DNA of 64,000 nucleotides from Pararcticibacter amylolyticus (lineage in GTDB: Bacteria; Bacteroidota; Bacteroidia; Sphingobacteriales; Sphingobacteriaceae), in contig NZ_QEAS01000001.1 in assembly GCF_003130405.1 (NCBI RefSeq), positions 2,310-66,309 on the forward strand. Reading direction: 5' to 3'. The notes below the pieces were generated by a model. The model saw only the letters and a list, made by a program, of their open reading frames with translations, searched no databases and had not been told where the DNA came from. Shown one piece after another: positions 14,040-18,056 of the stretch. Numbering within the stretch: position 1 is the first letter of the stretch; every line of letters starts with the position of its first letter. The position numbers were made by a program, and so were the translations under genes.

Positions 14040-15443
14040 TTATTCCAGCTCTTCCATCTGGTGTTGTCCGGGAATACGGACTTCTTTGAAGCCAATATCT
14101 AAAAGACGGTTCCTGAAGACGGTCTGAGTGTCATACTCCCCGTGAACGAGATACAGGGCTTTTACCTTTTCAGGGTCCTGGCAGGAAAGAAATTTAAGAA
14201 GATCATCACAATCTCCGTGGGCACTCATAGATCTTATGACCCGTACTTCTGCCCTCACATCATATTCATCTCCAAAAATTGAAACCACCTTTTTCCCTCT
14301 GATCAGCTCTCCGCCTAATGAAGACGGTTCGCAGTAGCCTACCATGAGAATAGTGTTCCTGTCGTTGCTCACCACACTCCTTATATGGTGTTTTACCCGT
14401 CCGGCTTCGGCCATCCCTGAAGAGGAAATAATAACAGAGGGCCGCGGATCGTTAACAAGAGCCCGGGATTCCTCTACCGACTGGATAAACTTCAGCCCTT
14501 TAAATTTAAAGACATCATCATCCTGTTTCATTACTTCTTTAACCCCGCGGTTGAGGACATCCGTATGTTCCCTTAAAACTTGTGTTGCTTTCTGGGAAAG
14601 CGGACTGTCTACATAATAGGGAAAATCAGGCAAAAGTCCCCTTAACTCCAGCGAGTTGAGGGCATACAGCAATTCCTGTGTCCGCCCGACGCTGAATGCG
14701 GGAATAACCAGCTTTCCTCCCTTCAGGTTACAGGTCTGATTTATAATCTCCTGTAAACGTTCTTCAAGTGGCTCCATATCCTGGTGAAAGCTGTCACCAT
14801 AAGTGGATTCGAGAATAATATAGTCTGCCTGTGGGAAGCTTTGCGGGTTCTTCAGCAGCAAATCGCCATACCGGCCTACGTCTCCACTGAATGTGAGCTG
14901 GGTATATTTCGCATCTTCGAGAATTGTCAAATGCACGGCGGCGCTTCCGATCACATGCCCTGCGTCGGTAAAGCGAAGCTTGATCCTGGGCTCGATCTCA
15001 AAATCGGTATTATAGTCAACTATTTTAAAAAGCCTCATGGCTTCCATCACATCCTCTTCCGTGTAAAGCGGCTTGAAAAGAGATAAACCACGCCTGGTCC
15101 GCATTTCATTTATGGATTCTGTTTCCTGCTGCTGGATTCCTGCTGAGTCATCCAAAAGCACCCGTGCCAGGTCCATCGTCGGTGCTGTGCTGAAGATCGT
15201 CCCCTTAAACCCTTCGGCAACCATCCTGGGAATTAAACCACAATGATCGATATGCGCATGAGACAATATAAGATAATCCACCTTTGCAGGGTTAAATCCA
15301 AAATGTCCGTTAAGGTCCTCTGTTTCTTCTCCCATTCCCTGGAAAAGGCCGCAATCAAGCAGAATCTGAGTACCGTTGTTCAACTTTATTAAGTGTTTGC
15401 TGCCGGTTACACATCTGGCAGCACCATGAAACGTTATCGTCAT
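14040..15443 (-). CDS. MBL-fold / beta-CASP RNA-processing hydrolase (RMMBL domain)
   Basis: The protein has 467 residues from the ATG at 15443 (MTITFHGAARCVTGS), which is where this family begins; the frame is open 22 codons further up. The metallo-beta-lactamase zinc motif LSHAHIDHCG is in the N-terminal third, with further ligands in DAGHVIGSA and FSGDVGR. The beta-CASP domain contains SSSGMAEAGR and HHI. The C-terminal RMMBL part has MSAHGDCDD and LVHGEYDTQ. These features match CPSF73-like or YsiA-like bacterial proteins expected to cut RNA. It is divergent from the blaI-like gene. The exact RNA target is unknown. Confidence 0.9.
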   Translation of the reverse strand: MTITFHGAARCVTGSKHLIKLNNGTQILLDCGLFQGMGEETEDLNGHFGFNPAKVDYLILSHAHIDHCGLIPRMVAEGFKGTIFSTAPTMDLARVLLDDSAGIQQQETESINEMRTRRGLSLFKPLYTEEDVMEAMRLFKIVDYNTDFEIEPRIKLRFTDAGHVIGSAAVHLTILEDAKYTQLTFSGDVGRYGDLLLKNPQSFPQADYIILESTYGDSFHQDMEPLEERLQEIINQTCNLKGGKLVIPAFSVGRTQELLYALNSLELRGLLPDFPYYVDSPLSQKATQVLREHTDVLNRGVKEVMKQDDDVFKFKGLKFIQSVEESRALVNDPRPSVIISSSGMAEAGRVKHHIRSVVSNDRNTILMVGYCEPSSLGGELIRGKKVVSIFGDEYDVRAEVRVIRSMSAHGDCDDLLKFLSCQDPEKVKALYLVHGEYDTQTVFRNRLLDIGFKEVRIPGQHQMEELE

Positions 15444-15519
15444 AAATGTATCTTCTGATAAAGGTTTACACACAACACGCCAGTGAATTTTAAGTTTGGA
15501 ATCATACAAACTAAAAGAA

Positions 15520-15577: not shown

Positions 15578-15949
15578 ATGAAAGAGTTAACGAGAGCAGA
15601 AGAGCAGATCATGCAGGTTTTATGGAAATTGGAGAAGGCCTTTGTAAAGGAGGTAATCGATGCATTGCCGGAACCCAAACCGGCGTATAATACGGTTTCA
15701 ACTATCATCCGGATCCTTGAAACAAAAGGCTTTGTGGATCATGAGGCTTTTGGAAAGAGTCACCGGTACTTCCCGGTGATCAGTAAAGAACAATACAAGA
15801 GCTTTGCTACCGAAAAGTTGCTGACCAACTATTTCAGTAATTCGATAGAAAAGATGTTTTCTTTCTTCGTAAAAAAAGAGAAGATTGACCTGAACGAAGC
15901 TGATGAAATTCTGAAACTTATTGAAGACCTCAAAAATAAAAAATCATGA
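15578..15949 (+). CDS. BlaI/MecI/CopY-family transcriptional repressor
   Basis: The protein has 123 residues, normal for the family. The N-terminal winged helix (LTRAEEQIMQVLWKLEKAF, then PAYNTVSTIIRILETKGFV) binds DNA, and the C-terminal part dimerises. Its stop overlaps the ATG of the BlaR1-like gene (ATGA at 15946-15949), the standard repressor/sensor-protease pairing. No beta-lactamase is encoded nearby, so the regulated process is unlikely to be classical beta-lactam resistance. The upstream inverted repeat at 15520-15533 may be its own operator. Confidence 0.92.
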   Translation: MKELTRAEEQIMQVLWKLEKAFVKEVIDALPEPKPAYNTVSTIIRILETKGFVDHEAFGKSHRYFPVISKEQYKSFATEKLLTNYFSNSIEKMFSFFVKKEKIDLNEADEILKLIEDLKNKKS

Positions 15950-17177
15950 CATGGTTTGCTTACCTGGTTCAGGTGAATGTTTACCTGACACTTTTCTATG
16001 CGTTCTATTTCATTTTTCTCCGGAATGAAACTATTTCACGTTAAACAGGATCGTCCTGGTAGGTTCGGGCACCTTCTCCTTTATAATCCCCTTAATACAG
16101 TCTGACCATATCCGGTCCTATTTCATAACGAATACAGTGTATCAGGCGGCCAGGTCCGTTAAGACTATCTATTTAACGCCGGCGAACGTACTTTTACAGG
16201 AGCAAAACGATACGAACTGGCTTTTAGTTATTTATGTCTCAGGCATGGCGCTGTTTTTGGGCAGATTTCTCCTGCGGCTCTTCAGTGCTTTACGCTACCG
16301 TCCATCGGAGGCTACGCAGCCCTATTCGTTCTTCCACCGGATTGTCGTTCCGGATCATATCAAGGTTAAAGAGCCTGTCATGAAGCATGAAGAAATCCAT
16401 GTAAAGCAATGGCATTCAGCAGATATTATTTTATTTGAGCTTATTTCAGCTGTTAACTGGTTCAACCCGGTTACTTACTTATACAAAAAGTCTATCCGGT
16501 CGGTACACGAATTTATTGCTGACGGCTCTGCTGTAAAGAAAGCAGGCAGCGTGTCCGACTATTCATTATTGCTGCTTGGCGAAACCCTGGGCACTCCGGC
16601 ATCTTTCCTCGCTAACAATTTCTTTAACGAATCACTCCTAAAAAAAAGGATAATTATGCTAACCAAAACAAAATCAAAAAAATCTGCCTTGATAAAATAT
16701 GGGCTGACTGCGCCCTTGTTTCTCCTGATGATCATCTTTTCCTCCGCAACACTGGACGCCGGCTCAGTGATCCGCAAAACAAGAATAAATGTAGATACTG
16801 CAGGAAAAAGCACAGCAGCGGGCGATACATCCATCCACGATTTTGCAGCCATTGATGTTCTACCCAATTTCCCGGGAGGCATGCCGATGTTCTATCAGTA
16901 CGTCTCAAAAGAATTCAAATATCCTTTGGAGGCTCAGAAAAACAAGATAACCGGCAGATTGATCATCAATTTTGTCGTGGAAAAAGATGGGAGTCTGAAT
17001 GGGATAAGGGTTCTGCGCGACCTGGGTAACGGATTGGGAGAAGAGGCGGTAAAGATGCTAAAAAACTCGCCTAAATGGGTACCCGGCACCCAAAACGGGA
17101 AGCCGGTCAGGGTAATGTATACACTTCCTATCATGGTTCAGCCCAAACCGGAAACCTCTACTCCTCCGAAGCAATAG
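15946..17177 (+). pseudogene. BlaR1/MecR1-like M56 metallopeptidase with TonB C-terminal domain, frameshifted near codon 30
   Basis: The ATG at 15946 overlaps the blaI stop, and the first 29 codons (MTWFAYLVQVNVYLTLFYAF...) form the first membrane helix of this family. The frame then hits TAA at 16042-16044. Shifting frame at 16033-16037 (ATTTC) restores TLNRIVLVGSGTFSFIIP, and the frame is open to 17177, so one base, probably a T, is missing. The remainder has the M56 zinc motif HEEIH, SVHEFIADGSA, membrane segments, and a TonB_C-like domain (about the last 90 residues, from FPGGMPMFYQY). Without correction only a product from an internal start such as GTG 16137 (346 aa) could be made. It may be a true lesion, a sequencing error, or slippage. 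Confidence 0.82.
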
Positions 17178-17285: not shown

Positions 17286-18056
17286 TTAGTTAATTTCTTC
17301 TTCTTTAAAAAATTTGGCTGTAAAATAATCGCGCCTCATTCTGTTAATATTTGTTAAAGAAATTCCCTTCGGACATTCTATCTCGCAAGCCCCGGTATTG
17401 GTACAGCTTCCAAAGCCTTCTGCATCCATCTGAGCAACCATTGCCTGAACACGGCGATATCTTTCCGGCTGTCCCTGTGGTAACAACGCCAACTGCGATA
17501 TCTTAGCAGAAACGAATAAGGCTGCTGATGCATTTTTACATGCAGCCACACAAGCCCCGCACTGAATACATGTGGCAGAATTAAACGCTTCGTCGGCTAT
17601 TACTTTAGGAATCGGGATTTCATTTGCATCAGGAATTCCTCCTGTATTAACTGAAACGAAACCGCCTGCTTCCTGGATTCTGTCGAAGGCAGTTCTGTCT
17701 GTTGCAAGATCCTTGATCACCGGGAAGGCTTCAGCTCTCCAGGGTTCAATGGTGATGGTTTCACCATCATGGAAGCTCCTCATGTGGAGCTGACAGGTAG
17801 TGATCCCTCTCTTTGGCCCGTGAGGACGACCATTAATATAAAGAGAACACATGCCACAGATACCTTCACGGCAGTCGTGATCAAAATGAATCGGATCCTC
17901 CCCCTTCTTCACTAATCTCTCATTCACCACATCCAGCATTTCCAGAAATGACATATCGGGAGAAATGTCATCAGCTTTATATGTTACAAATCTGCCCTTA
18001 TCGGCGACGTTCTTTTGTCTCCAGACATTCAGGGTTAAATTCATGTTTCCGCTCAT
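17286..18056 (-). CDS. sdhB: Succinate dehydrogenase / fumarate reductase iron-sulfur subunit
   Basis: The protein has 256 residues. The 2Fe-2S ligand motif CREGICGMC is in the N-terminal half, and the cysteine clusters [11 protein letters not shown] and [14 protein letters not shown] bind the 4Fe-4S and 3Fe-4S centres. It carries electrons between the FAD subunit and the quinone site in the membrane subunit. It is the last gene of sdhC-sdhA-sdhB, 68 bases after sdhA, and is followed by a strong terminator. The Bacteroidota enzyme can act in either direction, so the SdhB/FrdB naming is conventional. Confidence 0.97.

Follow-up and report, generated by a model that had tools for sequence, protein, structure and literature searches.

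The window (the whole stretch of DNA analysed, 64,000 nucleotides) carries a blaI/mecI-type repressor gene (15578-15949, forward strand) followed by a BlaR1-like gene of the M56 peptidase family (15946-17177, forward strand). The repressor has 123 aa and belongs to the Penicillinase_R family (Pfam PF03965), with 112.6 bits for a curated cut-off of 22.6. Its frame is intact, as the sequence-only reading of this DNA had stated, and it shares 88-89% identity with its orthologs in genomes G003 and G005. The pair is flanked by two conserved neighbours: (i) a divergent gene encoding an MBL-fold, RNA-exonuclease-like protein (14040-15509, reverse strand, start codon uncertain) and (ii) the convergent gene sdhB (17286-18056, reverse strand). 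No beta-lactamase or PBP gene was recognised directly beside the pair. Furthermore, two other blaI-M56 pairs with open frames are located on other contigs of the same genome. Hence, the sdh-linked pair is not the sole such system in the cell.

The ATG of the M56 gene at 15946 overlaps the blaI stop codon (TGA, 15947-15949), and the frame that it opens ends prematurely at a TAA (16042-16044), both as previously read. This 5' fragment (15946-16044, forward strand) has 32 codons, gives the product MTWFAYLVQVNVYLTLFYAFYFIFLRNETISR, which contains the first transmembrane helix, and matches residues 1-29 of all congeneric orthologs. The remainder of the gene (16032-17177, forward strand, 381 aa) begins with YFTLNRIVLVGSG and is open through 17174, its stop codon being located at 17175-17177. 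It lies in the -1 frame (equivalently +2) and not in the +1 frame that had been proposed. With a stop at 16042, the gene does not form one continuous frame from its start codon and is a broken member of its family.

This remainder encodes a Peptidase_M56 domain (PF05569; residues 103-210; 36.1 bits for a curated Pfam cut-off of 31) followed by one TonB_C domain (57.2 bits, cut-off 24.6). The zinc-binding motifs are kept in the alignment with relatives, HEXXH as HEEIH and EXXXD as EFIAD, which places the protein in the M56 family; these motifs are those of S. aureus BlaR1 (PMC9834060). After the protease, a search for a penicillin-binding sensor domain found TonB_C only. Moreover, the protein reaches 22.3 bits with the NCBIfam model sensor_BlaR1, for a cut-off of 1200, and thus falls outside the BlaR1 beta-lactam sensors. 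The initial description as BlaR1-like is therefore correct as far as the protease half is concerned but does not extend to the C-terminal part, which carries TonB_C and not a penicillin-binding sensor. Compared with its closest orthologs, the protein is also short, missing both an initial TonB_C-like domain and the SusC-signature tail of G003. This shortness need not indicate damage since other relatives, of 397-419 aa, are comparably short.

The downstream M56 part was searched in genomes of the genus, in genomes of the family and in named genomes. Outside its own genome, the best matches show 34-49% identity with an alignment that starts at the first residue of this part. Named hits come mostly from Pedobacter and Mucilaginibacter, which suggests that the organism belongs to Sphingobacteriaceae. 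All 27 relatives that were extended upstream have the M56 gene as a single unbroken frame beginning with an ATG. Counted back from the residue that aligns with position 16032, the start codon is exactly 29 codons away in 25 of them and 26 codons away in two more distant ones. These 29 residues correspond to the length supplied by the upstream fragment of the window up to NET. In the protein alignment, the relatives read NETFF-LNR, and the break in the window falls after NET and before YFTLNR. In the DNA alignment with five congeners, the window is the only row with a gap, being one base short at GAAAC/TATTTC. Such agreement cannot be produced by chance. The idea of a single missing base thus holds; its assignment to the ATTTC at 16033-16037 was too precise, the deficit, which requires a frame change of -1, being resolvable to about 16030-16037 (forward strand).

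The gene order indicates that true orthologs were compared. The blaI-M56 pair adjoins sdhB and then sdhA in G003, G005, G004 and G001, and the divergent MBL-fold gene is present at the locus in G005, G004 and G001. Even in G006, which belongs to another genus, sdhB, the M56 gene, blaI and the MBL-fold gene are all kept, with one small gene inserted. In G002, the pair sits in a different gene context. Identity in the M56 domain is 53-56% with G003 and G005 and 45-56% with congeners overall. When nearer relatives were sought at the DNA level, no match exceeded 68-77% identity and no genome of the same species was found.

Concerning the condition of the gene after the break, the claim that it is undamaged was supported: no further stop was found in the remaining M56 frame, and unusual residues are only slightly in excess. 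At 58 positions conserved across the other sequences, five deviations were counted in the window, one or two in congeners and up to 18 in distant members. The M56 identity of the window to G004, G001 and G002 is 0.45, little below the 0.45-0.51 of G003 and G005 to the same genomes. Since the M56 protein diverges fast in nearly all pairs, low M56 identity alone is no sign of decay. Long-standing pseudogene decay, considered as another explanation, is unsupported by these deviations and identities. On sequence grounds, the nearly undecayed remainder would fit either a lesion of recent date, with little or no relaxation since, or an error in the consensus. The sequence-only reading had offered both; the remainder is compatible with each and does not choose between them.

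We consider it probable that a real and recent deletion of one base, at about codon 29, inactivates the M56 protease and leaves the repressor uncleaved. Translation would end after 32 residues and no membrane protease would be produced. The intact BlaI-type repressor would then escape cleavage and its targets would stay repressed. This regulatory consequence is proposed by analogy with S. aureus, in which BlaR1 cleaves BlaI directly and this cleavage is needed for BlaI inactivation (PMC9834060): loss of the protease would leave the repressor in place.

Alternatively, the base may have been lost from the consensus by an assembly or sequencing error, the gene being intact in the living organism. 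This explanation, the main rival, is possible but less likely. The draft genome comprises 153 contigs and has N gaps, the catalytic motifs and the entire downstream frame are intact, and an error would explain the nearly undecayed remainder equally well. However, the site is no homopolymer, the nearest run of at least four identical bases being TTTTT at 16013, and similar frame breaks are not in excess within the window. A relaxed dicodon scan for frame switches, with a sensitivity of 38% in simulation, gave 15 candidates in 400 kb; the M56 site is the only one in the 64-kb window and the other 14 are unconfirmed candidates. A strict scan of the same length gave nine candidates, none at the M56 site and four in the window. 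Those that were read (the four in the window and two others) look like ordinary gene borders or like no convincing split gene. An assembly littered with indels, another possibility considered, is thus unsupported by both scans. With no sign of widespread indels and no homopolymer, the usual setting of platform errors, at the site, a real mutation is moderately favoured over an error.

It had also been suggested that the frameshift is tolerated, an active protease being obtained either by -1 ribosomal slippage or by internal initiation at GTG 16137. The downstream frame is indeed open for 381 codons and a product initiated at this GTG would retain the later helices and the active site, but the case for either route is weak and we regard it as very improbable. 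From the ATG to the stop, the 0 frame contains no X-XXY-YYZ heptamer of the kind used in programmed -1 frameshifting and, near the stop, no codon is able to re-pair one base back. The site includes no homopolymer of at least four bases and the downstream RNA structure is not significant (z = -1.36). Programmed or transcriptional slippage was rejected on this absence of motif and homopolymer and on the weak structure. As for internal initiation, GTG 16137 is the first ATG, GTG or TTG in the downstream frame and is located 92 bases past the stop. It opens the longest ORF with a common start (16137-17177, forward strand, 346 aa), a candidate whose product would lack the first two helices. In G003 and G005, the matching codon is an internal ATC (Ile) or GTG (Val) within one frame. 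Moreover, the split is shared by none of the 27 relatives. Annotation should record a frameshifted M56 gene or a resequencing site and not a 346-aa protein starting at GTG 16137. Lastly, two separate genes, the small ORF encoding a conserved membrane peptide, have nothing in their favour beyond the existence of this ORF and are refuted, both parts being fused in one frame with the same spacing in all relatives examined; such a conserved split, named beforehand as the result that would overturn the frameshift, was looked for and is absent from all 27.

The preferred reading, a real deletion in the sensor-protease gene, can be compared with known systems. As in BlaR1/MecR1-BlaI/MecI systems of Staphylococcus and Bacillus, a Penicillinase_R repressor gene adjoins the gene of a membrane gluzincin of family M56 that carries the HEXXH and EXXXD motifs. 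Unlike them, the window encodes TonB_C in place of the penicillin-binding sensor and its gene is frameshifted. Indels that truncate blaR1 have been described in clinical S. aureus, and every blaZ-positive isolate retained an intact blaI (PMC9413241). The blaR1 alleles of these penicillin-susceptible strains resemble the window in that the sensor protease is truncated by an indel and blaI is intact; however, their indels occur mostly in an 8-adenine tract (PMC9413241), whereas the window site has no homopolymer. The M56 frameshift is ordinary gene damage or one sequencing error and not a new mechanism.

Another frameshift was observed in the ortholog from G004 (L043:3146-4944), which has its own one-base shift at a GGGG run in TonB_C, the other frame being open to about 4944. 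The adjacent blaI is intact and the M56 gene of its sister G001 (83% identical DNA) is unbroken. This different frameshift suggests that the M56 gene can be lost. Two broken M56 genes among six syntenic loci hint at dispensability, in a small sample that may include errors. That the protease of the sdh-linked pair is repeatedly lost and the repressor kept, as a selected 'locked repressor' state, is in our opinion unlikely by a wide measure. Should the loss prove both real and recurrent, the strains concerned would offer natural knock-outs with which to identify the targets of TonB_C-bearing BlaI-M56 pairs in Bacteroidota. Nothing specific was found in the literature on Bacteroidota M56-TonB pairs, including what TonB_C-bearing BlaI-M56 pairs regulate.

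Other Bacteroidota BlaI-M56 pairs carry TonB_C and sometimes a SusC-signature tail, for instance the orthologs of 624-627 aa from G003 and G005 and a pair from Pedobacter sp. V48. Those of G003 and G005 are direct orthologs that share gene order with the window, but the window copy has one TonB_C, has no tail and is out of frame after residue 29. The domain content 3' of the protease differs widely in the M56 family (window 16032-17177 versus L041:3136-5010). In the G003 ortholog (L041:3136-5010), residues 570-623 form a short SusC/RagA-like segment (NCBIfam TIGR04056 and TIGR04057). Such an end, resembling an outer-membrane receptor, can occur in BlaR1-like M56 proteins of the clade and is odd for an inner-membrane sensor protease. 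In addition, the contig of the M56 gene (C1) encodes a separate TonB_C protein in a 282-aa open frame (L013, 81217-84555). Its TonB_C domain and the one in the M56 gene share 58% identity, and similar proteins are encoded by all five congeners.
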